NCBI GenBank assembly: GCA_023935145.1
Contig: CM043699.1
Span: 58,296,638-58,360,637, forward strand
Source of the DNA: Bretschneidera sinensis
Taxonomy: Eukaryota; Streptophyta; Magnoliopsida; Brassicales; Akaniaceae
DNA length: 64,000 nucleotides
Direction: 5' to 3'
The notes below the pieces were generated by a model. That model was not told the DNA's origin, did not search any database, and saw only the letters and a program-made list of their open reading frames with translations. Both the position numbers and the translations under genes were made by a program. Of the stretch, positions 8,724 through 55,918 are shown in pieces (the stretch's first letter is position 1; each line of letters begins with the position of its first letter).

Positions 8724-10132
8724 TGTTGTGAGTTTTAAATTACTCGCAAGCGCACGAGTCGTCTGCAATATAGTGTGTGCAAGTGGGAGGTCAAATCCAC
8801 AGGGAATTGCGTTGTGAAAATATATTTTTATCTAAACTAAGTCTATTTTAACCTAGTTCCAAATTTGTAATTGTATGTTGCAAACAAAATAAACTAAACT
8901 AAATTGATTTAAAAACAAATGATAAAGATACTAAGGTTTCTGAATCCACCTCACCAAAGTAAAGCATATATTTTCATGTTCTATATAAAAATAATCAAAA
9001 AATTCCATGAATCCACCATTATACAAATCACGGCGAATACCCAAATTAAACCAAAACCATCTAATGTATCCGTTTAATTTACAAATCACAAAGGAAATCC
9101 AATCTAATTTGAATGATCCGTCGTATCTGGTAGATGAAACACAATGAATATCTAATTTAACAATTTAAAAACAATCAATCATAAGGTTTTTCTCAAATAA
9201 TTGAACAGAAAATTTATACTAAAAATATCATAATTGTATAAACAAATCTGAAAATATTATGTCAAACAATGGCGAGGCTTCATCTTCAACCTTAGATGAA
9301 GATTTTAGCCTCTCATAATTATGAAACTAAAGTTCACAATAAAAGTGCTAAACATTAAACTTTAAAACTTAAAAAAGAAATAAATTAAAAATGACTATAC
9401 ATTTGGAGAAATTTCACTCGCTGTTGGATGGCACTTCCTCTCATGGTAGCAAAGCCTTAGAGATCCACCAGAATGCTAGTAGAAGTCCTCCAGATTGCGC
9501 CCCAATTGCTTCAGTGAGGTGGGGATTTTATAGGGAAACTCAAGATTGCAATGTATTTCAAATTCGATATGGGATACTGCCCGAGTGCGCTCGATCATAG
9601 TCTTGTGCGCTCGAGCGCAGCATGGTGCACTTCCTGACCTTTGTCTACTAAAACTGCCATAACTTTCTCTAGAAAAATCATTTTTATGAGCCGTAAAATT
9701 CCTCAGAAAATAGACATCTGGATCTTTCCAAGAATATATGGCTCATTTCCTAGTTCTTCCTGAATCAATACAGTAAAATCCACAAAAATGACTAATCTGC
9801 CACACTGAAATCACACACAGCCTGACCTTTGTCTACTAAAACTGCTATAACTTTCTCTAGAAAAATTATTTTTATGAGCCGTAAAATTCCTCAGAAAATA
9901 AACATCTAGATCTTTTAAAGCATATATGTCTCATCTCCTGATTCTTCCTAAATCAATACAGTAAAATCCACAAAAATGACTGATCTGTACAGGCAATTCT
10001 GGCAATTTTAGTGAAACTCCTTTTCAAGTGCTTGTAAACCTGTAAAACAACGAAAACAACTCAAAGTAACAAATTTCTAAGCTAACAAATGTAAATTAAG
10101 GGGCCAAAATATGCAATATTTGGAACTCATCA
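8724..10132 (-). repeat. 3' LTR of Athila-like element A
   Basis: On the minus strand the LTR runs from TGATGAGTTCC (10132) to CTCACAACA (8724), 1409 bases. Order inside: two tandem copies of a block of about 189 bases (about 9640-10020), a short CGATC/CTCGAG palindrome array (9580-9635), a TCCCATATCG box (9565-9574), a TATA box (9526-9532) and a U5 with the TCCCTGTGGATTTGACC motif near 8800. The polypurine tract normally next to this end is missing: the LTR joins a small duplication of ATGCACTCATCAA at 10133-10152. Confidence 0.85.
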
Positions 10133-13135: not shown

Positions 13136-13314
13136 CCATATTTTTTAAAATTTTATTTTATTTTACTTTATTTTATTTTATTTTTTATGGGCAATTGCCA
13201 ATAGAAACAAATAAACTAAAATAAAATTGCAAAAGAAAAATAAAACAAAAATGATAACTAAACTAGTATAAAAATAAAATCAGTTTAAACAAAAATTTCA
13301 CAAACAAAACAAAT

Positions 13315-13490: not shown

Positions 13491-14263
13491 TCAGGGGTAC
13501 ACTTGTTAAGGATCCACACTTGCATATTTGGGAATTCTTTGATCTCTGCAAGTTCCAGCACATCCGGGGCCTAGATCAAGATGGAATTAAGTTAATTCTT
13601 TTCCATTTTTCATTAAAAGATAATGCTAAGTTGTGGTACAATTCATTACCTGCAGTGTCTATCCATACTTGGGAAGAGCTATCCAGTAGGTTCCTAAAGA
13701 AGTTTTTCCCAGCATAAAAGAAAAGGCAGATGAGGAATGAGATTTAATCTTTCCAATAGAAGGATGAAAACCTTTTCTTTGAAGCAAGGGGACACTTCAA
13801 TGAGCTGCTTCTCAAGTGTCCACATCATAGTCTACCTCAAGATGAGCTGGTACAAGCTTTCTATGAAGGTCTAAGTGACATAAATAAAGGTATTGTAGAT
13901 TCAGGTTGTGGAGGTGTGCTGATGGAAAAGAGCAATGAAGAAGCTATGGAGCTTTTTGAGACATTAAGTGAGCACACCCAATAATTCTTATCCAGAGGAA
14001 GACCATGAGTAAAGAGCAAGGGTATGTATGAAGTAACCTTAAATGGTGGCTCTCCAAATTAGATGGCTGCTGTGGAAAAAAAAAAAACTAGATATGCTTG
14101 TAAAAGCCATGACTGCTCAGAACATCCCACCTAGTCCACAAGCCACACAACTCCAGGCATGTGCTATATGTTCTTATTTTGATCACACTACTGAATCTTG
14201 CCCTTTGCATTCATCTGCAGATCAAGAGCAAGCAAACTATGTGGGATCGAACAACTATCCTCC
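13491..14263 (+). pseudogene. gag of Athila-like element C, left part
   Basis: Plus-strand gag beginning abruptly at the junction with A. 13520-13717 reads a retrotransposon gag domain (LFHFSLKDNAKLWYNSLP, then WEELSSRFLKKFF), followed by stops and shifts, then CPHHSLPQDELVQAFYEGL near 13820, and a zinc-finger-like CAICSYFDHTTESC at 14161-14202. The frame is cut at 14263 by insertion of element B and resumes at 21860. The gag is from a different family to that of B and D. Confidence 0.85.
14259..14263. repeat. Target site duplication CCTCC (left) of element B
   Basis: CCTCC directly left of the TGTTGTGAG end of element B. The same five bases follow its other end at 21855-21859. A 5-bp duplication is usual for Ty3/gypsy integration. 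Confidence 0.9.
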
Positions 14264-15657
14264 TGTTGTGAGTTTTAAATTAGTCGCAAGCGTACGTGTC
14301 GTTTGCAATATAGTGTTGTGCAAGTGCGAGGTCGAATCCACAGAGAATTGCGTTGTGAAAATATTTTTTATCTAAACTAAGCCTATTTTAACCTAGTTCC
14401 AAGTTTTGAATTGTCTTTTGCAAAACAAATATAAACTAAACTAAATTGATTTAAAGACTAATGATAAAAACACTAAGGTTTCTGAATCCACCCCACCAAA
14501 GTAAAGCATATATCTTCATATTCTATATAAAAATAATCTATCAAAACATTCCATGAATCCAACATTAAACAAATCACAACAAATATCTCAATTAAACCAA
14601 AACAATCCAATGTATCCGCTTTTAACAAATCACAAAGGATATCCAATTTAATCAAAAACGATTCGATGTATCCATCAGATGAAACACATGGAATATCCAA
14701 CAGAACAATTTAAACTCAATCAATCATAAGATTTTACTCAAATAATTGAACATAACATTTATATTAAAAAACATCATAATTGTATAAACAAATCTGAAAA
14801 TATTATGCCAAACAATGGCGAGGCTTCATCTTCAACCTTAGCTGAAGATTTTAGCCACTCATAATCATGAAACTAAAGTTCACAATAACAGTACTAAACA
14901 TTAAACTAAAAAAAAGCAGTAAATTAAAACTGACTATACATGGGAGAAATTCCACTCGCTGTTGGGCGGCGCTTCCCCTCGTGATAGCAAAGCCTTCGGA
15001 GATCCACCAGAATGCTAGTAGAAGTCCTCCAAATTGCACCAAAATGGCATTTGGATTGCTTACTAAAGATGAAGTGAAGAGGGGCTTATATAGGGAAACA
15101 TAACAAGTGCAATATGCTTCCAATCCGATGTGGGATACTGCAAATTCCAGCTTTTGCTCTTTGACCTTTGTCTACTAAAATTGCCATAACGTTCTCTAGA
15201 AAAATCATTTTATTGATCCGAAAAATTTCCCAGAAAATAGACATCGAGATATTTCCAAGCATATATGGCTCATCTCCTGGTTCTTCCTAAATCAATACAG
15301 TTTAATCCTAAAAAATGGCTGATCTGTCACGCTGAAATCATGCACAGCCTGACCTTTGTCTACTAAAACTGCCATAATGTTTTCTAGAAAAATCATTTTA
15401 TTGATCCGTAAAATTCCCAAGAAACTAGACATTCGGATCTTTCCAAGCATATATGGCTCATCTCCTGGTTCTTCCTGAATCAATATAGTTTAATCTTCAA
15501 AAATGGCTGATCTGTACGAGCAATTCTGGCAATTTAGTGAAACTCCTTTACAAGCTTGTAAACCTGTAAAACAACGAAAAACAACTCAAGGTAACAAATT
15601 CCTAAGCTAACAAACGTAAATTAAGAGGCCAAAATATGCAATATTTGGCACTCATTA
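14264..15657 (-). repeat. 3' LTR of element B
   Basis: 1394 bases. On the minus strand: TAATGAGTGCC start, two tandem copies of the 189-base U3 block (about 15160-15540), a TCCCACATCG box (15126-15135), a TATA box TATATAAG (15085-15092) and a U5 ending CTCACAACA. A polypurine tract GTTTGGGGGTATT lies directly next to it at 15658-15672. Confidence 0.92.
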
Positions 15658-18449: not shown

Positions 18450-20273
18450 TTACTTGAACACCTCCAGAATTTTCTCAAACTTCCCTCCTTTCTTGGGCGC
18501 TTGTAATCTCTCAGGGTAATGCACTTTAGGTACAAATGACCTAGGAGGATCCTTAACAGTGGGTGTGGTTGTAGATGGCTCAGCATCTCTCTTTTTCTTG
18601 TTGCCACTTTCTTGTCCTGGCTGCATAGCAGGGTTCTCTTCCAATTGATTGTCCACTTGTCTCCCAGACCTTAATATGACAATCGATTGCACTTGTTCCT
18701 GCTCGTGCGTAGGATTTGATGAATTTCCAACCGCAAACTGTCCTTTCAGGTTAGGCACAGGTTGACTAGGGAACGTTCCCTTATCTCTTTCACCCAAGTG
18801 ACTTGCGATTTGACCTATTTGACTCTCTAGCTTGGCAATCGCTTGGGTGTTTACTATTGTTGCGCTCCTCACTTCACTGATGGATTGGCCGTGCATCTTC
18901 ATGAACTCCTTAAGGGTGTCCTCTAGTGACTGTGAAATCGGCGCTGGTGCTTGAGTGAGAGCTTGGTAAGTAGGTGATGGTGTTGGATGGGCTGAGCGAC
19001 CATGACTTGGAATTGGTGGAGAAAATCCGGGAGGGTATTGATTGTGAGCATGATGAGGGGCTCCTCCCTGATTCATCGATTGGTTCTGCTTCCACGAAAA
19101 ATTAGGGTGGTTCCACCACCCTGGATTGTAAGTCTCGAAGTAAGATCCATTTGATTGCCTCCGATAGTCATTGAAAGCGTTCACTTGGTCCATAGGATAC
19201 TCGACAAAAGCTGGCATAGATGGACAATTCTGTGCTAAATGCATAGGACTAGCACAGATGGAACAACTATCAATATTAAATGTATTGGCAGCATTGATGG
19301 ACTTGCCCACAGCGAGAGCGTCAATCTTCTTGGTGAGAACATCTATCATTATCTTCAAGTCAGTATCCTCCTTAATCTCATAGATGCCTCCTTTCCTAAG
19401 AGCACGACTGGACTTGTCCCGACAGCTTGAAAAATCCCACTGCTGCGAGTTGTCGGACAACTTGTCCAAAGCCTTGTATGCTTCATCCCCCGTCAGACTT
19501 AAGAATGCCCCCCCATTCATAGACTCGATCATGCTACGGTTGGGTTGAGTCGACCCTTGGTAGAAGAACTGAACGAGTCTCCATTTTTCATATCCATGCG
19601 GAAGGCATCTGATCAGTAACTCCCTGAAGCGCTCCCAGATCTCAAAAAACTTTTCATCCTCATTCTGAGTGAAAGAACTAATCTCCTTTCGGCACTCATT
19701 CACTCTAGACATTGGGAAAAACTTATGATAAAATTTGCTAAGCAGATTTTCCCAAGATGTAATAGACCCGGGCATGTTGGAATCCAACCATGCCCTAGCT
19801 CTATCGTGAAGAGAAAAAGGGAAAATTCGAAGATGGACTGACTCCTCAGAGAAATTCTGAAACTTGAATGTGGCACAAATGTCTTTGAACTTCTTTACAT
19901 GACTATAAGGATTTTCAAGATCTAAGCCATAAAATGAGGGTAAGAGTTGGATGACATGTGGCTTTAAGTCAAAATGGGTGGCATTGGTAGGTGGCAACAC
20001 TATGCAAGAAGATGAATTAGTCGCAACGGGTGCGAACAATTCCCTAAGGGATGTAGTGGAGTCCACGTTCCAAGCTATAGGTTGCTCTACATGCTCCGGA
20101 TGATTTGCATTCCTAAAATTTTCTCCCATCTCAACTGTCTCTCTTTCAACTAGTGTTCTTTTCTGTCTCCTAAGAGTTCTTTCTAAGTCGGGATCTAAAG
20201 GTGTCAAATCTAAATTCAGGGATCTCCGACCAAGCATACACCACAAAAAAAATAAACTAACTAGTAGAAACAA
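18450..20273 (-). CDS. Gag polyprotein of element B (607 aa, open)
   Basis: The longest open frame of any mobile element here. N-terminal basic region (LDPDLERTLRRQKR), then the capsid-like retrotransposon gag domain at about residues 100-260 (HVIQLLPSFYGLDLENPYSH, FPFSLHDRARAWLDS, CLPHGYEKWRLVQFFYQG). A CCHC zinc knuckle CSICASPMHLAQNC lies near residue 340, then a Pro/Gln/Asn-rich tail with a second SQSLEDTLKEFMKMHGQS segment and LRSGRQVDNQ. Gag forms the virus-like particle. This is the only full-length gag of the A/B/F/H group, and its uninterrupted frame suggests recent activity or use in trans. The stop lies in the gag-protease spacer, at 18450. Confidence 0.88.
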   Translation of the reverse strand: MFLLVSLFFLWCMLGRRSLNLDLTPLDPDLERTLRRQKRTLVERETVEMGENFRNANHPEHVEQPIAWNVDSTTSLRELFAPVATNSSSCIVLPPTNATHFDLKPHVIQLLPSFYGLDLENPYSHVKKFKDICATFKFQNFSEESVHLRIFPFSLHDRARAWLDSNMPGSITSWENLLSKFYHKFFPMSRVNECRKEISSFTQNEDEKFFEIWERFRELLIRCLPHGYEKWRLVQFFYQGSTQPNRSMIESMNGGAFLSLTGDEAYKALDKLSDNSQQWDFSSCRDKSSRALRKGGIYEIKEDTDLKIMIDVLTKKIDALAVGKSINAANTFNIDSCSICASPMHLAQNCPSMPAFVEYPMDQVNAFNDYRRQSNGSYFETYNPGWWNHPNFSWKQNQSMNQGGAPHHAHNQYPPGFSPPIPSHGRSAHPTPSPTYQALTQAPAPISQSLEDTLKEFMKMHGQSISEVRSATIVNTQAIAKLESQIGQIASHLGERDKGTFPSQPVPNLKGQFAVGNSSNPTHEQEQVQSIVILRSGRQVDNQLEENPAMQPGQESGNKKKRDAEPSTTTPTVKDPPRSFVPKVHYPERLQAPKKGGKFEKILEVFK

Positions 20274-20439
20274 AACAAAATAAAATACAAATACAAACTA
20301 AAAATTAAAAATTAAAATTAAAATTAAAATTAAAAATAATTAAATTAAAATTAAATAAAATAAAATAAAACAAAAATGCTAACTAAACTAGTAGAAAAAT
20401 AAAATTAATTCTGACATAAATTTCACAAACAAAACAAAT

Positions 20440-20456
20440 CCCCGGCAACGGCGCCA
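20440..20456 (-). other. Primer-binding site of element B (tRNA-Asp)
   Basis: On the minus strand TGGCGCCGTTGCCGGGG, six bases from the 5' LTR end. It is the complement of the 3' end of plant tRNA-Asp(GUC), including CCA, as I know it. Athila-type elements commonly use this primer. Confidence 0.85.
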
Positions 20457-20462
20457 AAAACT

Positions 20463-21854
20463 TGTTGTGAGTTTTAAATTACTCGCAAGTGCACGAGTCG
20501 TTTGCAATATAGTGTTGTGCAAGTGCGAGGTCGAATCCACAGAGAATTGCGTTGTAAAAATATTTTTATCTAAACTAAGCCTATTTTAACCTAGTTCCAA
20601 GTTTTGAATTGTCTTTTGCAAAACAAATATAAACTAAACTGAATTGATTTAAAAACTAATGATAAAAACACTAAGGTTTTTGAATCCACCCCACCAAAGT
20701 AAAACATATATCTTCATGTTCTATATAAAAATAATCTATCAAAACATTCCATGAATCCAACATTAAACAAATCACAACAAATATCCCAATTAAACCAAAA
20801 CAATCCAATGTATCCGATTTTAACAAATCACAAAGGATATCCAATTTAATAAAAAATGATTCGATGTATCCATCAGATGAAACACACAGAATATCCAACA
20901 GAACAATTTAAACTCAATCAATCATAATATTTTACTCAAATAATTGAACAGAACATTTATATTAAAAAACATCATAATTGTATAAACAAATCTGAATATA
21001 TTATGCCAAACAACGGCGAGGCTTCATCTTCAACCTTAGCTGAAGATTCTAACCACTCATAATCATGAAAATAAAGTTCACAATAACACTGCTAAACATT
21101 AAACTAAAAAAAACAGTAAATTAAAACTGATTATACATGGGAGAAATTTCACTCTCTGTTGAACGGCGCTTCCCTTCGTGATAGCAAAGCCTTCGGAGAT
21201 CCACCAGAATGCTAGTAGAAGTCCTCCAAATTGCACCAAAATGGCACTTGGATTGCTTACTAAAGATGAAGTGAAGAGAGGCTTATATAGGGAAACATCA
21301 CAAGTGCAATATGCTTCCAATCCGATGTGGGATACTGCAAATTCCAGCTTTTGCTCTTTGACCTTTGTCTACTAAAACTGTCATAACTTTCTCTAGAAAA
21401 ATAATTTTATTGATCCGTAAAATCTCCCAGAAAATAGACATCGGTATCTTTCGAAGCATATATGGCTTATCTCCTGGTTATTCCTGAATCAATACAGTTT
21501 AATCCTAAAAAATGGCTGATCTGTTACGCTGAAATCATGCACAGCCTGACCTTTGTCTATTAAAACTGCCATAACTTTCTCTAGAAAAATCATTTTATTG
21601 ATCCATAAAATTTCTCAGAAACTAGACATTCGGATATTTCCAAGCATATATGGCTTATCTCCTGGTTCTTCTTTAATCAATACAGTTTAATCTTCAAAAA
21701 TGGCTGATCTATACGAGCAATTCTGGCAATTTAGTGAAACTCTTTTCCAAGCTTGTAAACCTGTAAAAAAACGAAAAACAACTCAAGGTAACAAATTTCT
21801 AAGCTAACAAATATAAATTAAGAGGCCAAAATATGCAATATTTGGCACTCATCA
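20463..21854 (-). repeat. 5' LTR of element B
   Basis: 1392 bases, minus strand, TGATGAGTGCC to CTCACAACA. It contains the duplicated U3 block (about 21365-21740), a TCCCACATCG box (21323-21332), a TATA box TATATAAG (21282-21289) and the U5 motif TCTCTGTGGATTCGACC near 20545. It is followed by the CCTCC duplication. Confidence 0.92.
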
Positions 21855-24588: not shown

Positions 24589-26329
24589 TGATTAGTGCTT
24601 AAATATTCATATTTAAGCTCCTTAATTTACATTTGTTAAGTTCCTAGTTTGTGTTATTTCATCCTATTTTATTTCCTTTCTGTGCTTTCTGTGTTTTTCT
24701 AGGTTTTTTGGAGCACTATGGAATTATCTGGCTTAAAGAGCAAACTTGGGAAAAAGCTGGAATCTGCTGTTGCGATCGAGCGCAACAACGCTCAAGTATT
24801 TATTTATATGTTCAGCTTAGGAATGTTACTTTGAGTTGTTTTTTTTCATTATTTTACAGGTTTACAAGCACTTGGAAAAGAGTTTCACTAAATTGCCAGA
24901 ATTGCCAGTATAGATCAATCATTTTTGTGGATTAAAATATATTGATTTAGGAAGAACAAGGAGATAAGCCATATATGCTTGGAAAAATCCAGATGTTTAT
25001 TTTCTAGAGAATTTTACAGCTCATAAATATGATTTTTCTAGAGAAAGTTATGGCAGTTTTAGTAGATAAAGGTCAGGCTATGCGTGATTTCAGCGTGACA
25101 GAAGTGATTTTTGCATATTAAACTATAATGATTAGGAAGAAATAGGAGATGAACCATATATGCTTGGAAATATCCAGATGTCTATTTTTTGGAGAATTTT
25201 ACGGCTCATAAATATGATTTTTCTAGAGAAAGTTATGACAATTTTAGTAGACAAAGGTCAGGCTGTGCTTGATTTTAGTGTGGGCAGAAGTTTTGAAGGG
25301 CATGTGAAGGCTTAAATCTCTCATCCCAAATCGGTTGGAAACACATTCTACATCCCATATCCCACATCGAATTGGAAACACATTGCACTTATGGAGTTCC
25401 CTTATAAAAGCCCTATTTCACTTCATCAAAGGTGTGCAATCTCGAAACCTTTGCTACCAAGGGGTGCAATCTGGAGGATTTTGCTACCAATCGGGGGAAG
25501 CATCGCACAGCAGCTACGGGTGGAATTTCTCTCTCCATGTATTGTTAGTTTTAATTTATTTCTTTTAAGTTTTAAAGTTTAATGTTTATCACTTTAATGT
25601 TTGCTCTAATTTTTCTCTTGAGATTTTTGTTGTCCATTATATTTATGAGTAACTAAATTCTCAAGTGGGCTAGAGATGAACTTGCACAGTAGATGGTATT
25701 TTTGTTTATTTTTTAATTTATATATTTGATTTTCAATTACTAAAACTCTTTTGCTTTATCATTCTCAATTTATTGGTGATGTTTTCTTCTCCGAATAATC
25801 TTAGAACTTATTTTGTTTATGGATTCAGTCATGCTTTCTCTATTGAATGGATTAGCTCTTTGATTATGTTTGAATCAATTATTTATCTATATTGATTTAA
25901 TTCTTTGCTGCAATATCGCTTCCTGAGTATATTTTCGTCGTTGGATTTTCTCAATAGTGATAATAATGCACGTATTTTAAAAGTGGTGAATTTGGTTTAA
26001 TCTTGGTTTATAAATCTATACCTTCCGATTGAGAATTTTAGGAAATGAGTTCCCAATTGAGTTTTTCAATGAATTAAGAATAATTAAAATACCAGATTTG
26101 TGCAAGGGATTCCCGACGCTTTACTATTTGTCAAATTTGAGTACTTTCTCCGTTAGTCACTTTGCTTCACTTTAATTTGCATTTAAAATTAATCTTTGTT
26201 CTCCATTCATCATTTAATATTTTTCTTTAGTTTCTTTGTTCCTTCTACTATTCTTTAAATTTGTCTCTCTGTGGAATCGATACCCTAAAGCTGTGTTACA
26301 ACTATCACATTATTCTTTAGGCATAATCA
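24589..26329 (+). repeat. LTR shared by elements C (3') and D (5')
   Basis: TGATTAGTGCTTAAATATTC at the left, ATAATCA at the right, 1741 bases. The left side has C's polypurine tract and the right side has D's primer site. Inside are a CGATCGAGCGCAAC palindrome remnant (24770-24790), two tandem copies of the 189-base U3 block (about 24885-25270), a degenerate TCCCAAATCGG (25324) and an exact TCCCACATCG (25360-25369), a TATA box TATAAAAG (25403-25410) and CTCTGTGGAATCGATACC near 26268. Confidence 0.85.
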
Positions 26330-26486: not shown

Positions 26487-27860
26487 TTGTTACCTTGCAT
26501 GCACATATATAGAGACGCCTTAGGTAGATTTGCTTGTAAGCCTGTGCTAGAGTCAGAATCAAAATTTTTAAATCCTTTATTTAACAATCCATCTAGTCTT
26601 GAAGAAATGAGTGAACACAGAGATAAACCCACTAGGACCCTTCAGGATTACCTCCACCCTACACGCATAGCCATATCATCTTGCATCATGTTTCCAGCTA
26701 ATACTCGCCAGCTGGATTTTAAAACAGGGATGATATAGTTACTCCCTACGTTCCATGGCTTGGAAAATGAAAACCCATATGTGCACATTAGGAAGTTTGA
26801 GGAAGTAGTTGCGACTTTTCATAGTCAAAATGCAACTGATGACATTGTAAGACTTAAGTTCTTTCCTTTTTCTTTGAAGAATAGAGCTAAGAGTTGGCTA
26901 TACTCACTGAGACCATGACCTATTAGGTTGTGGAATGAGATGGCTCAGGTTTTCTTTAATAAATACTTTCCCTAACATAAGACCAACGCTTTAAAAAGGC
27001 AAATCTCCACCTTTGCACAAAAGAACAGTGAAACTTTGGATCAGTCATGGGAGAGATTTAAGGAGTTGTTAAGTATGTGTCCTCACCATGGGTATGAGAA
27101 TTGGCGCTTAGTGAGCTATTTTTATGAGGGACTTACACCTAGAGATCTCCAATTTGTGGAGATAATGTGTAATGGTGAGTTCTTACAAAAAGATCCTGAT
27201 GAGGCCATAGAATACCTCAATGAGCTTGCGGAAAAAGCTCACAGTTGGACTAGACCTAGTGCTACTGAGAGCACAAATAGGTCACGCCCTGCAGTAAACC
27301 CAAATGGTGGTGGAATTTACCATCTCAGGGAAGAGGATAACCTAAAGGCTAAGGTCGAGATGCTCACTAGGGAGCTAGATGTGTTAAAGACTAAGGACTT
27401 AAAGCCAACACACATGGCTAATCATGCAGAATCTTTTGGACCATGTTTTGTGTGTGGCAGAGTAGATCATCTCACTCAAGAGTGTCCCACATTTGCTGAA
27501 ATGAGAGGGATGTATGAGGAACAATGTAATGCTTTAGGTATGTACAAGAAGCCTTTTTCACCTTTCTCTGATATCTATAATCCGGGGTGGCGCAATCACC
27601 CCAATTTTAGCTAAAAGTCTAAAAACCAGTCGCTTACACAACCCCTTAGATCATATCCTACACCATATCATGCACCTTCATCTTCTAGGAGTCCTTTAGA
27701 AGATACTTTGCATGCTTTTATTGAGGCACAAGGTAAGACTAACCAAAAATATGAATATTTGATTACGCAGGTTGTTGAAGAAAATAAGGAGATAAAGAGC
27801 CAAGTGTCCAAATTGATGAGCTCTTTGAGTGTGAATGAGCGAGGTAAGTTCCCTTCTCAA
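26487..27860 (+). pseudogene. gag of Athila-like element D
   Basis: Plus-strand gag of the same family as G. 26487-26738 holds the N-terminal part (RTLQDYLHPTR, FPANTRQLDFKTGMI). After a stop at 26737 the capsid continues (LLPTFHGLENENPYVHIRKF), is broken near 26917, and resumes openly at 27036-27614 with MCPHHGYENWRLVSYFYEGL, the zinc knuckle CFVCGRVDHLTQEC (27447-27488) and NPGWRNHPNFS. It is interrupted by only a few stops, and similarity to G is high by eye. Confidence 0.87.
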
Positions 27861-30151: not shown

Positions 30152-30503
30152 TGTTGATGCCAAAAATAAGTCGGGTGTATTAGGGTCTGATCGGTTCTGC
30201 TACCGGTTAGGTCTAAGTCGGTCCAAAGAAGGTCGTACGTTGACTAACACTCGTTTGGTTTAAGTTGGTTTGATGGTACCTAAAAAGGAAGCCGACCCAG
30301 AGTGGTTGACTTTGGGAAGAACTCTTCGCAATTTGACTCAGAGTATGAATTAGTGGAAAGCAAAAGTAAAAATGAAAATAGTGTCTTGGTTATTGTTTGG
30401 GGATGCCCTATTTATAGGGTCCAATTGGGGTAGAGATTGACATTTTCCCCTTGTGGTTGGCAAGTGTCATCTTCTGGTTTGAGGATATATTTGTCCTATA
30501 TCA
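30152..30503 (-). repeat. 3' LTR of element E
   Basis: 352 bases. On the minus strand TGATATAGGAC at 30503, TATTTATAGGGT region near 30410, GGCATCAACA at 30152. A polypurine tract (AAAAAGGGGAAGGGCATG) lies directly next to it at 30504-30521. It matches 57680-58033 along its whole length. Confidence 0.9.
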
Positions 30504-37138: not shown

Positions 37139-37858
37139 GTGCGCCAGTATGCGCTCGAGCGCACCAGACTGCGATCGATCGCACTCGGGTAGTATCTCAC
37201 ATCGAATTTGAAACATATTGTACTTCGGGAATTCCCCTATAAAAGCCCCATCTCCCTTCATCATTCGGTGTGCAATCCGATGGATGTCTACTACCATTCT
37301 GGTAGATCCCGAAGGCTTTGCTACCACGAGGGAAAGCACCGCCCAACAGCGAGTGGAATTTATCCTATGTATAGCCAGTTTTAATTTACTGTTTTTTTTT
37401 TAGTTTAATGTTTAGCACTGTTATTGTGAACTTTAGTTTCAAGATTATGAGTGGCTAAAATCTTCAACTAAGGTTAAAGATGAAGCCTCGCCGTTGTTTG
37501 GCATAAGATTTTCAGATTTGTTTCTACAATTCTGATGTTTTTTTTAGTATAAATGTTCTAGTCAATTGTTTGAGTAAATTCTTACGATGGATAGTTTTTA
37601 AATTGTTCTGTTGGATATTTAGTGTGTTTCATCTGATGGATACATCGAATCATTTTTGATTAAATTGGATATCCTTTGTGATTTGTTAAAAGTGGATACA
37701 TTTGATTGTTTTGGTTAAATTGGGATATTTGTTATGACTTGTTTAAAGTTGGATTCATGGAATGTTTTGATAGATTATTTTTATAGAACATAAAAATATA
37801 TGCTTTGCTTTGGTGGGGTGGATTCAGAAACCTTAGTGTTTTTATCATTTATTTTAAT
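37139..37858 (+). repeat. 5' LTR of element F, both ends truncated
   Basis: Starts inside a palindrome array (GCGCTCGAGCGC and GCGATCGATCGC at 37150-37182), then a TCTCACATCG box (37195-37204), a TATA box (37238-37244) and R/U5 sequence that matches 51457-52130. Near 37858 it jumps over the last 180 bases of U5 and the primer site into the leader. F therefore lacks its PBS. Confidence 0.85.
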
Positions 37859-42447: not shown

Positions 42448-43597
42448 TGATTACGCCCAAAACATAACCCGGTTATTGTAGTATAGTTTTGGGTGTCGAT
42501 TCCACAGGGAAACAAGTTAAGTACAACAGAAGGTGTAAACCTCAACACAAACGATAAAATATTAAAAGAATCTGAGTTGTTTGAGAAAAAGGGTAATTGT
42601 GTAAATAAGTTTAAAAGCCTGACTGAACTTATATGGAAAAGAAGCATGCAACCACCGGAGTTATAATAAATCTACTAATTAAATTAAAGAATAAAGCATA
42701 ACAATATTTAACGAAAATAATTCCAACTACAACCGAATCAAATAAAGGAAAAATAAGAGCAACTACACCTAGGGATTCATCCCTTCGCCTTGCTTGGAGA
42801 CTAGCCGGCCATGGGGCATATGCGTCCTCGAGTTGTCTCCGGCCTCCCGACGATCATCTCTCCCAACCTTCAAACTTTAAACTTTGGGTTCCTCCTAAAG
42901 GCCCTCTGGATTGCTCCTAAAGGCCCTCTAGATTCATCCCCGATTTATTTCCAAAGCTAAAGTGGAGTGGGTCTTATATAGGCAAATACCAAGAGTGCAA
43001 TGTGTTTTCCATCCGATGTGGGATGTGAGATATAGAAATATGTTTTCCAACTGCTGTGGGATGTGGGATGTGGGATTTAAGCCCAAAATCACGCTGAAAT
43101 CCCACACAGCCCGCACAGCCTGACCTTTGTCTACTAAAACTGCCATAACTTTCTCTAGAAAAATCCTTTTGACGAACCGTAAAATTCTCCAGAAAAAAGA
43201 CTTCTGGATCTTTCTAAGCATATATGGTTCATCTCTTGGTTATTTTTGTATCAATACATTTTAATTTTCAAAGATGATTGATCTGTACGGGCAATTCTTG
43301 CAATTTAGTGAAACTCTTTTCCAATGCGGGCAGCAGCTGTTGCTCTTCTAAGCCCTCTATCTTGTCCTTCCGGAAGTATTCCTTCACTCCAGTATGCCTC
43401 GAGTCTTTGTGCTTCAAGAAATGATAACTTTTCCTCCTCTTTTGAGCTTAAAGTACCTGAAAATGCACCGAAGTAGATCAATGATCCAAGAATGATACTT
43501 TAGAATTGTTAACATATAAAAGTGCAATTAAAACCTAGATCAACCCTAAAATGCTAACAATTAAGTACTGATAACAGGCATTTTATGACTCTCATCA
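42448..43597 (-). repeat. 3' LTR of element G
   Basis: 1150 bases, minus strand, TGATGAGAGTC (43597) to GGGCGTAATCA (42448). One 189-base U3 block (about 43100-43320), several tandem GATGTGGG words (43014-43078 plus strand), a TCCCACATCG box (43014-43023), a TATA box (42973-42980) and TCCCTGTGGAATCGACACC near 42500. It lacks about 300 bases present in the 5' LTR, between GTTTAAA and AGCCTGACTG near 42616. Confidence 0.92.
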
Positions 43598-46860: not shown

Positions 46861-47110
46861 GTTAACAAAATCCTCTAGATTCTCACATGGGTTTTCTCTA
46901 TGGGTTTATCTAGGCGAGGTTTCACTATCAGACTCGGAAGGAGAGGGTAATTCTAGCTCAGGTCCTCTAATGAATCTACCTCGCAGATCTCTTGTCTAAG
47001 CATGCACCAAATGAATCAGAGAGGAAATAAAATAAATAAAAAAAGAATTTTTTTTTTTTTTTTACCATCACACTCAAAGTTGACAAGCTTCCTTGTACTT
47101 AAGTACGTTT

Positions 47111-47127
47111 CCCCGGCAATGGCGCCA
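47111..47127 (-). other. Primer-binding site of element G
   Basis: On the minus strand TGGCGCCATTGCCGGGG, 16 of 17 bases as in B (tRNA-Asp type), five bases from the 5' LTR end. Confidence 0.85.
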
Positions 47128-47132
47128 AAATT

Positions 47133-48584
47133 TGATTACACCCAAAACATAACGTGGTTATTGTAGTATAGTTTTGGGGTGTCGATTCCACAGGGAAACA
47201 AGTTAAGTACAACAGAAGGTGTAAACCTCAACACAAACGATAAAAGATTAAAAGAATCTGAGTTGTTTGAGAAAAAGAGTAATTGTGTAAATAAGTTTAA
47301 AATAAAAATGACAAGGTTCCAGAAATCCTCCCTAGGTTCGTTGCTCTAATCCTAACTTGATTAAGTTGTTTTTATCTCGATTGCAAGTTTCACATCCCAA
47401 ACAGGCAATCGAAAAATATTCAATTAAAGTGCATTTATAAATCCTAATGTAATTGTTATGAAATCTTCTTTACTTTCAAGCACACATGACCTAACTTATA
47501 AATTATCAAGAGACGACGATATATCTAAATGATGATACCGCAGCAATGGACAAATCTATAAAAGAGATCTACCGGACTCAATCACACCCAAACAGGTACA
47601 CATAAGAAAAGCCTGACTGAACTTATATGGAAAAGAAGCATGCAACTACCGGAGTTATAATAAATCTACTAATTAAATTAAAGAATAAAACATAACAATA
47701 TTTAACAAAAATAATTCCAACTACAACCGAATCAAATAAAGGAAAAATAAGAGCAACTACACCTAGGGATTCATCCCTTCGCCCTGCTTGGAGACTAGCC
47801 GGCCATGGGGCTCATGCGTCCTCGAGTTGCCTCCGGCCTCCCGACAATCATCTCTCCCGACTTTCAAACTTTAAACTTCGGGTTCCTCCTAAAGGCCCTC
47901 TGGATTGCTCCTAAAGGCCCTCTGGATTCATCCCCGATTTATTTCCAAAGCTAAAGTGGAGTGGGTCTTATATAGGCAAATACCAAGAGTGCAATGTGTT
48001 TTCTATCCGATGTGGGATGTAAGATATAGAAATATGTTTTCCAATCGATGTGGGATGTGGGATTTAAGCCCAAAATCACGCTGAAATCACGCACAGCCCA
48101 CACAGCTTGACCTTTGTCTACTAAAACTGCTATAACTTTCTCTAGAAAAATCCTTTTGATGAACCATAAAATTCTCCAGAATATAGACTTCCGGATCTTT
48201 CTAAGCATATATGGTTCATCTCCTGGTTCTTCTTGTATCAATACAGTTTAATTTTCAAAGATGATTGATCTGTACGGGCAATTCTCTCAATTTAGTGAAA
48301 CTCTTTTCCAATGCGGGCAGCAGTTGTTGCTCTTTTAAGCCCTTCATCTTGTCTTTTCGGAAGTATTCCTTCACTCCAGTATGCCGCGAGTCTTTGTGCT
48401 TCAAGCAATAATAACTTTTCCTCCTCTTTTGAGCTTAAAGTACCTGAAAATGCACCGAAGTAGATCAATGATCCAAGAATGATACTTTAGAGTTGTTAAC
48501 ATATAAAAGTGCAATTAAAACCTAGATCAACCCTAAAATGATAACAATTAAGTACTGATAACAGGCATTTTATGACTCTCATCA
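47133..48584 (-). repeat. 5' LTR of element G
   Basis: 1452 bases. Two TCCCACATCG boxes (48008-48017, and plus-strand CGATGTGGGA near 48047), a TATA box (47967-47974), one U3 block (about 48105-48310). The extra 300 bases relative to the 3' LTR lie at about 47302-47608 and resemble the interior of other U5 regions (AATCGAGATAAAAACAA). AGACT follows at 48585-48589. Confidence 0.92.
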
Positions 48585-50263: not shown

Positions 50264-51456
50264 TGATGAGTCTTAAATATTGCATATTTAAGACCCTTAA
50301 CTTATATTTGTTATGCTCTTAGTTTGTAGTATTTCACTTTATTTTATGTCTTTTTTGTGTTTTGTGTATTTCTATAGGTTTGTGGAGAAAATGAGGCATT
50401 TCAGGAGATGTGAAGCTTCAGGAGCAATAGCGATCGATCGCACTATTCTGCGATTGAGCGCATGGTCAACAATCCCACATCGAAATGTTTACAGTAAAAC
50501 GCACCTACGATCGAGCGCACCAGACATGCGATCGTGCGCACAAGACATACGATCGATCGCACCATACTGCGATCGAGCGCACCCAGGCAGTATCCCACAT
50601 CGAATTTGTAACCCTTTATACTCCGAGACTCCCCCTATATAAACACCATCTGGCCTCATCATTCAGTGTGCAATTCCTGAGCCACTTTGGTGTTAACCGG
50701 TGGACGTCTGCTAGCATTCTGGTGGATCCTGAAGGCTTTGTTACCACGAGGGGAAGTACCACCCATCAGCGAGTGGAATTTCTCCCATGTAAAGTTATTT
50801 ATTTCTTTTTAGTTGTTTTAGTTTAATCTTTAGCACTTTTATTATGAATTGTAGTTTCATAGTTATGAGTGGCTAGAATCTTCAGCTAAGGTTGAAGATG
50901 AAGCCTCACCGTTGTTTGACATAGTAGTTCAGATTTGCTTGTACAAATCTGACAATTTTTTAGTATAAATGTTTTGTCAATTATTTGATTTAATCTTGTG
51001 AGTGATTGAGTTTAAATTGTTCTGTTGGATATTCCTTGTGTTTTATCTGATGGATACATCGAATTGTTTTCGATTAAATTGGATTTCTTTTGTGATTTGT
51101 TAAAAGCGGATACATTGGATGCTTTTGGTTTAATTGGGATATTCTTTGTTTTTTGTCTTAAGTTGGATTCATGAAATTTTTTGATAGGCTATCTTTAGAA
51201 CATTGAGATATATGCTTAACTTTGGCGGGGTGGATTTAGAAATCTTAGTCCTTTTATTAGTTTTTAAAATCAATTTAGTTTAGCTTTTATTTATTTTGCA
51301 ACATATAATACAAAACTCACAACTAGGTTAAGATAAGATTAGTTTAGATAAATTTATATTTTCACAACGCAATTCCCTGTGGATTCGACCTCGCACTTGT
51401 GCAACACTATATTACAAATGACTCGTGCGCTTGCGAGTAATTTAAAACTCACAACA
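50264..51456 (+). repeat. 3' LTR of element F
   Basis: TGATGAGTCTT to CTCACAACA, 1193 bases. It lacks the 189-base U3 block. Instead it has the longest palindrome array of the window (50427-50590, six units of about 20 bases around CGATCG), a TCCCACATCG box (50593-50602), a TATA box TATATAAA (50636-50643), and U5 with TTCCCTGTGGATTCGACC near 51372. Confidence 0.9.
50427..50590. repeat. CGATCG palindrome array in F LTR
   Basis: Units such as GCGATCGATCGCAC, GCGATTGAGCGCA, ACGATCGAGCGCACCAGACA and GCGATCGTGCGCACAAGACA, each about 20 bases, ending in CACCAGACAT-like spacers. All are rich in CpG. Related shorter arrays are in the LTRs of A (9580-9635), C/D (24770-24795), F 5' (37140-37182) and H 3' (55828-55910). 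Confidence 0.88.
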
Positions 51457-52319
51457 ATCGCACTCGGACAGTTTCCCACATCGAATTTGAAACACATTAT
51501 ACTCCGGGAATTCCCCTATAAAAGCCCTATCTCCCTTCATCATTCGGTGTGAAATCCGGTGGACGTCTGCTAGCACTCTGGTGGATCCCGAAGGCTTTGC
51601 TACCACGAGGGGAAGCGCCGCCCAACAGCGAGTGGAATTTCTCCCATGTATAGTCAGTTTTAATTTACTGTTTTTTTTAGTTTAATGTTTAGCACTGTTA
51701 TTGTGAACTTTAGTTTCATGATTATGAGTGGCTAAAATCTTCAACTAAGGTTAAAGATGAAGTCTCGCCGTTGTTTGGCATAAGATTTTCATATTTGTTT
51801 ATACAATTCTGATTTTTTTTTAGTATAAATGTTCTGGTCAATTGTTTGAGTAAATTCTTACGATCGATAGTTTTTAAATTGTTCTGTTGGATATTCCATG
51901 TGTTACATCTGATGGATACATCGAATCGTTTTTGATTAAATTGGATATTCTTTGTGATTTGTTAAAAGCGGATACATTGGATTATTTTGGTTTAATTGGG
52001 ATATTTGTTGTGATTTGTTTAAAGTTGGATTCATGGAATGTTTTGATAGATTATTTTTATAGAACATAAAAATATATGCTTTACTTTGGTGGGGTGGATT
52101 CAGAAACCTTAATGTTTTTATCATTAGTTTTTAAATCAGTTTAGTTTAGTTTATATTTGTTTTGCAAAAGACAATTCAAAACTTGGAACCAAGTTAAAAT
52201 AGACTTAGTTTAGATAAAAATATTTTCACAACACAATTCCCTGTGGATTTGACCTCGCACTTGCACAACACTATATTGCAAACGACTCGTGCGTTTGTGA
52301 GTAATTTAAAACTCACAAC
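51457..52319 (+). repeat. 5' LTR of element H, truncated at its left
   Basis: Starts at ATCGCACTCGG, inside the palindrome array, directly after the complete 3' LTR of F. It continues with a TCCCACATCG box (51474-51483), a TATA box (51517-51523) and R/U5 to CTCACAACA. It matches F's 5' LTR closely. U3 upstream of the array is absent. Confidence 0.88.
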
Positions 52320-55486: not shown

Positions 55487-55918
55487 TGATGAGTGAAAAA
55501 TATTGCATATTTTGGACACTTAATTTACATTTGTTAGCATAAGAATTTGTTACTTTGAGTTGTTTTCATCGTTTTTCAGGTTTACAAGCACTGGGAAAGA
55601 AGTTTCACTAAAATTGTCAGAATTGCCTATACAGATCAATCATTTTTGTGGATTTTACTGCGTTGATTCAGGAAGAACTAGGAGATGAACCGTATATGCT
55701 TGGAAAGATCCGGAAGTCTATTTTCTGAGGGATTTTACGGCTTGTAAAAATGATTTTTCTAGAGAAAGTTATGGCAGTTTTAGTAGACAAGGGTCAAGCT
55801 GAAGATGTCTAGTGCGCTCGATCACACCAGACTTGCGATCGATCGCAAGTGCGCACTCGCACATCCCACATCGGTTAAAAATGCTTTGTAGTGCACCAGT
55901 ATACACTCGAGTGCACCA
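55487..55918 (+). repeat. 3' LTR of element H, truncated at its right
   Basis: TGATGAGTGAAAAAT start, one U3 block (about 55560-55800), a palindrome array (GCGATCGATCGC at 55839-55850) and a TCCCACATCG box (55864-55873). It stops about 45 bases later, before any TATA box. The last 30 bases repeat the first bases of F's 5' LTR at 37139, with changes only at CpG sites. Confidence 0.82.

Follow-up and report, generated by a model that had tools for sequence, protein, structure and literature searches.

A USE-like box and a TATA box at Pol II snRNA-type spacing in Athila-like LTRs of Bretschneidera sinensis

Results

Athila-like elements in the analyzed window

The window is a stretch of 64,000 nucleotides from Bretschneidera sinensis (assembly GCA_023935145.1, contig CM043699.1), and its elements are referred to by letter. 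The LTRs described below are carried by Athila-type gypsy elements of a plant, as identified by primer binding sites, gag, reverse transcriptase (RT) and integrase sequences, and LTR pairs with target-site duplications. LTR ends of the form TG...CA together with 5-base duplications were established for B and G, with the exception that B 3' starts with TA and not TG. Three primer binding sites (at 13314, 20439, and 47110) were found with up to two mismatches to TGGCGCCRTTGCCGGRGA allowed, all of them at zero mismatches; they read TGGCGCC(G/A)TTGCCGGGGA and are presumably of the tRNA-Asp type. Five of the 10 ORFs scanned gave a Pfam retroelement match, four above the curated cutoff, and the families matched were PF03732 (with one more match below the cutoff), PF00078, PF00665, and PF00098; the gag, RT, and integrase domains are scattered over different elements of the window. 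Among the 120 RT relatives listed, those with names came from plants, except for records labeled Snodgrassella sp. and Salmonella enterica. For gag, the best 120 of 502 relatives were headed by 17 JGI proteins, and the best named ones were from Alnus, Rhododendron, Lonicera, Citrus, Castanea, and Corylus.

Other sequence collections were also scanned. One scan of genome contigs found two loci, in contigs filed as Solirubrobacter sp. CPCC 204708 (L073, 1-9848) and Geminicoccus harenae CPCC 101083 (L074, 1-9030). The two share 99.6% identity across 9 kb, code for the internal part of an Athila-like plant element, and probably represent plant DNA contaminating both bacterial assemblies; since neither has a long terminal repeat by self-comparison or a box at up to one mismatch, they are uninformative on the LTR box. 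Viral contigs, scanned for the pattern as a background, gave 72 loci with 77 pairs of an exact box and a TATA box 20 to 50 bases apart, one of the 77 at 33 bases, where no peak was seen. None of these 72 loci matched the window by blastn at 1e-5, and no plant element was seen in locus L003, which was examined at length, the other loci being viewed over about 100 bases. No RT relatives were found in viral contigs with single-protein and alignment queries, a primer-site scan of viral contigs gave four GC-rich loci (64 to 68%), all without the box, and the C/D core had no match in a plasmid search.

A USE-like box precedes the TATA box at a near-constant distance

In plant snRNA genes, a distance of 33 to 34 bases between the upstream sequence element (USE) and the TATA box goes with Pol II, and one of 23 to 24 bases with Pol III. 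The dicot snRNA promoter is described as the USE RTCCCACATCG plus a TATA box, with four helical turns between the two in Pol II genes and one turn fewer in U6 and U3 (PMC9845283); the consensus and its role with the TATA box in dicots are also given in PMC11961915, and PMC545797 prints it with one C fewer, as RTCCACATCG.

The initial annotation had reported this type of layout in nine Athila-like LTR cores, and a box followed by a TATA box was recovered in all nine, in position and in strand (Table 1). The TCCCACATCG-like box has 10 letters, as used by plant snRNA genes, and is perfect in seven of the nine LTRs, the exceptions, A and F 5', each having one mismatch. The full 11-mer RTCCCACATCG is exact in six cores and has one mismatch in three; in H 5', a T at the R position stands ahead of an exact 10-mer. 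From box end to TATA start there are 33 bases in eight cores and 32 in A; a gap of 33 bases corresponds to roughly 42 bases from center to center, or about four helical turns. With up to one mismatch in the box and TATAWA 20 to 50 bases downstream, the window holds 10 pairs, one at 32, eight at 33, and one at 35 bases, the last being a second TATA register in F 3'; no pair lies at 20 to 31 bases. When the window was simulated 200 times with a first-order Markov model, the mean was 0.04 pairs and the highest count 2; this comparison treats related LTR copies as if they were independent. Another repeat family in the window (TATA at 30416 and 57947, minus strand) has the TATA box without the box, its best 10-mer within 120 bases upstream having four mismatches. 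Downstream of the TATA box, the LTR cores carry a pyrimidine-rich stretch that by eye resembles that of ordinary Pol II mRNA promoters.

Table 1. Positions in the window of the box and TATA elements, of further box copies, and of the surrounding LTR features
Feature	Position	TATA	Strand	Distance from TATA (bases)	Remark
C/D, USE-like box	25360..25369	25403..25410	+	33	TCCCACATCG
B 3', USE-like box	15126..15135	15085..15092	-	33	
B 5', USE-like box	21323..21332	21282..21289	-	33	
F 5', USE-like box	37195..37204	37238..37245	+	33	TCTCACATCG
F 3' (so called), USE-like box	50593..50602	50636..50643	+	33	
H 5', USE-like box	51474..51483	51517..51524	+	33	T at R
G 3', USE-like box	43014..43023	42973..42980	-	33	
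G 5', USE-like box	48008..48017	47967..47974	-	33	
A, USE-like box	9565..9574	9525..9532	-	32	TCCCATATCG
G 3', imperfect box copies				40, 71, 78, 85	
G 5', second exact box	48046-48055		-		
G 5', imperfect box copy	48053-48062		-		
U3 tandem units (A, B, C/D)	9633-9987, 15162-15515, 21359-21710, 24921-25291				186-188 bases
21-base tandem CGATCGAGCGCACCAGACATG	50508-50583				3.7 copies; directly upstream of F 3' box
H 3' LTR remnant, truncated U3	55487-55873				stops just after USE-like box
Box of truncated H 3' U3	55864..55873		+		no TATA within 90 bases
B 5' LTR	20463..21854		-		TG...CA; target-site duplication GGAGG
G 5' LTR	47133..48584		-		TG...CA; target-site duplication AGTCT
B, primer binding site	20439..20456		-		TGGCGCCGTTGCCGGGGA
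G, primer binding site	47110..47127		-		TGGCGCCATTGCCGGGGA

The cores are homologous and fall into about three deep lineages

The nine LTR cores can all be aligned and are homologous, which leads us to reject nine independent origins of box plus TATA. They form about three deep lineages, A/B/F/H, C/D, and G. The tree built from the downstream sequence places G and C/D on long branches (0.94 and 0.41), and C/D stands beside A with a support of 0.85; supports in this tree are partly low (0.25 to 1.0). B 3' and B 5', like G 3' and G 5', are LTR pairs of single insertions. F 5' is only 79% identical to F 3' but 92% identical to H 5', so the two F LTRs probably do not belong to a single insertion. 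Because the LTRs are homologous and include pairs of single insertions, a constant spacing by itself proves little, and it has to be judged by divergence rather than by nine counts.

The box is the best conserved part of the LTR core

Conservation of the box greatly exceeds that of the remaining alignable LTR. In an alignment from -60 to +420 around the TATA box, it is the best conserved of 559 ten-column windows (seven representatives). Mean pairwise identity among these seven, with B 3' and G 3' set aside, is 94% for the box, 86% for the TATA box, 69% for the interval between them, 45% for the 14 columns upstream, and 52 to 59% downstream. Parsimony counts over all nine LTRs, on a tree built from the sequence after the TATA box, gave 2 changes in 10 columns for the box, 4 in 8 for the TATA box, 40 in 33 for the interval, and 333 in 309 downstream, or 0.2, 0.5, 1.21, and 1.08 changes per column; the downstream columns were limited to the 309 of 891 with no more than one gap, which are the better-aligned part. 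None of 300 downstream ten-column windows was as low as the box, and random draws reached its value with a frequency of 0.00064. The interval substitutes at an ordinary rate but hardly varies in length, which bears out the earlier remark that the sequence between the two elements is less conserved than their spacing.

Further box copies and a variable U3 lie upstream

Scanning 200 bases upstream of the TATA box revealed extra copies of the box in C/D, F 3', and G, at variable distances of 40 to 153 bases, unlike the proximal copy, which always lies at 33 or 32. In G and C/D, the distance of these further exact or imperfect boxes (up to two mismatches) to the TATA box is 40 to 85 bases; F 3' has one, at 153 bases. 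G also carries 7-base TCCCACA repeats upstream of the box.

The extra copies bear on one alternative, in which the box is a selected promoter element bound by another transcription factor and the match to the USE is a coincidence or reflects a shared site preference. Conservation shows function, not which factor is served; the copies 40 to 85 bases from the TATA box in G and C/D resemble an ordinary activator site, and the pattern would look no different if some other factor preferred this site. However, the 11-mer USE is matched exactly in six of the nine cores, the proximal copy keeps the Pol II snRNA spacing to within one base in all nine, and a free activator site would have no need of a fixed distance. 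We therefore regard this account as unlikely, although it deserves to be kept in view.

The sequence that every lineage shares starts only a few bases from the box, and A, F, and H have about 20 more bases in common upstream; the box is therefore close to where the common core begins on its upstream side. Beyond it, the U3 differs among the LTRs: A, B, and C/D contain tandem units, and the U3 of F 3' contains tandem CGATCGAGCGCAC-type repeats. The 21-base tandem CGATCGAGCGCACCAGACATG adjoining the F 3' box was not found upstream of F 5'; motifs related to it were seen by eye in A, F 5', and the H 3' remnant. The H 5' LTR starts 17 bases before its own box, and the rest of its U3 is missing. 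Its start at 51457 lies right where the F 3' LTR ends, forming a head-to-tail LTR-LTR junction. A truncated U3 of an H 3' LTR ends just after its box, and the DNA that follows is without an LTR core.

Length variation between box and TATA

Among cross-lineage pairs without A, eight of nine have no gap between box and TATA and one (F 3'-G 5') has a single gap, where the downstream rate predicts 3.5 to 7.2; these counts use seven representatives (B 3' and G 3' left out) and come from nonindependent pairs. Each of the six pairs that include A has 1 or 2 core gaps, A having lost one base and having a damaged box. Within one lineage, the pairs B 5'-F 3' and B 5'-H 5' show 2 and 1 gaps despite a spacing of 33 in each member, and from these pairs and those with A it is evident that the gap counts depend on alignment settings. 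In the multiple alignment, 1 indel lies between box and TATA versus 2.3 expected, a deficit that is not significant.

Common descent alone, in which an ancestral LTR had the 33-base spacing and too few indels have occurred since, would agree with the homology of the nine cores and with this nonsignificant deficit. It does not account for a box at 0.2 changes per column next to an interval at 1.21 and downstream sequence at 1.08, nor for cross-lineage pairs without A that have many gaps outside the core and, in one pair of nine, one inside. We consider descent alone distinctly improbable as the full explanation.

Downstream sequence and the expected transcript

The initial annotation had further proposed that such a promoter could give transcripts with unusual 3' processing, and this part is not supported. 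In plants, snRNA 3'-end cleavage has been reported to proceed without need for an snRNA promoter (PMC5079582), and an ordinary long RNA is accordingly what one would expect from a USE promoter. The plant 3' box CA(N)3-10AGTNNAA occurs in six of the nine copies, all of them A/B/F/H, with its AGT at TATA+114 or +136, and is absent within 400 bases in C/D and G; given a chance rate of about 0.1 sites per 100 bases, six matches in nine copies of one lineage are not far above chance. The first run of at least four T lies 48 to 227 bases past the TATA box.

No spliceosomal snRNA was among the three Rfam matches of the window at gathering scores, all of which were snoR71, and a relaxed scan of 25200-25750 (E up to 1) gave no snRNA and one sub-threshold miRNA match; the LTRs other than C/D were covered at gathering scores only. 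With no snRNA encoded downstream in these scans, the reading of the locus as an snRNA gene was rejected, as was a Pol III reading on the ground of spacing. A Pol III promoter of type 3 (U6-like), or a short snRNA-like RNA ending at the 3' box, would share its two elements with U6 and could invoke the 3' box in six of the nine copies, but it is scarcely credible, because the spacing is of the Pol II gene type, the T runs would stop Pol III, the 3' box is missing in C/D and G, and the scans above gave no spliceosomal snRNA.

The snoR71 matches (RF00097) themselves lie at 13728-13833 (-), 19591-19694 (+), and 26987-27094 (-), in retrotransposon-rich DNA. Two of the three overlap gag ORFs on the opposite strand, and the snoR71 family may be partly retroelement derived.

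Discussion

The earlier reading of these LTRs as carrying an snRNA-type promoter stands as far as the sequence, the TATA box, the spacing, and the conservation of the box are concerned, and falls with respect to 3' processing. We take the box for a USE because the published USE is RTCCCACATCG, accompanied by a TATA box at four helical turns for Pol II. On these sequence features, we put at roughly 60% the probability that the box is a working USE in a Pol II-spaced core promoter, bound by a SNAPc-like factor; this reading draws on about three deep lineages in one window, and much of their agreement is by descent. Also counting against it are the mRNA-promoter-like pyrimidine-rich stretch, the repeat family with a TATA box and no USE-like box, the dependence of the gap counts on alignment settings, and the shorter USE printed in PMC545797.

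If the box does work as a USE, box and TATA would together form the core promoter of the Athila-like LTRs. A SNAPc-like complex on the box and TBP on the TATA box four helical turns away would then bring in RNA polymerase II, at a predicted start site, and the product would be the ordinary long, presumably polyadenylated genomic RNA of the element. The upstream U3, whether it carries the roughly 188-base tandem units (A, B, and C/D) or the CGATCGAGCGCAC-type repeats (F 3'), may act as an exchangeable enhancer module. More broadly, a whole clade of plant LTR retrotransposons might be transcribed via the host SNAPc, with the USE and its spacing under selection and the U3 modules swapped, a proposal that we make tentatively and at slightly below even odds.

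The Arabidopsis telomerase RNA AtR8/AtTR is the product of a USE gene reported to be SNAPc dependent (PMC6765143). Were the box a working USE, LTR retrotransposons would be a further SNAPc-dependent Pol II class in plants, one that makes long RNA, and would help to separate the choice of promoter from the choice of 3' end. Such use of SNAPc would tie retrotransposon expression to an essential factor that is hard for the host to silence, and it would explain why one core is kept by Athila elements with very different U3 modules. It would also mean that searches for snRNA genes by USE plus TATA will pick up LTRs.

Compared with the plant Pol II snRNA promoters (U1, U2, U4, and U5), the LTRs share the same box, a TATA box, and a distance of about four turns. 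Unlike those genes, they drive a retrotransposon, have no snRNA body, and show a 3' box in one lineage only; they also have a pyrimidine-rich stretch after the TATA box and extra boxes upstream. A promoter of the small-RNA-gene type is known in an LTR from the Cassandra TRIM, which carries a 5S rRNA promoter; that one is an internal Pol III promoter of type 1, in a nonautonomous element. Strings like TCCCACATCG are probably frequent in the LTRs and intergenic repeats of plants, which may lower the novelty of finding a USE in an LTR. Within the open-licence literature, considered mostly by title and the beginning of the abstract, no account of a plant LTR with a USE was found.

With the Athila clade of Ty3/gypsy, the elements share TG...CA LTRs and 5-base duplications (B and G), primer sites, gag, RT, and integrase. 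They differ from what is described for that clade in the conserved USE of the LTR core, which was seen here and of which no description was found in the accessible literature. Sirevirus LTRs also have a conserved core promoter, in which repeated boxes precede a conserved TATA box (PMC2829016). Their boxes, however, are CGG-CCG palindromes, the TATA box lies on average 37 bases after a CpG island, and the elements belong to Ty1/copia and not to gypsy; snRNA is not mentioned in the accessible portion of PMC2829016. A likeness in terms of factors is offered by the Pr77 promoter of trypanosomatid non-LTR retrotransposons, which is described as bound by TBP and SNAP50 (PMC8190864). Pr77 differs in belonging to non-LTR elements and in being a 77-base promoter with a downstream element, to which direct SNAP50 binding is weak. 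SNAP50 together with TBP at a retrotransposon promoter is thus already known from these trypanosomatid elements (PMC8190864).
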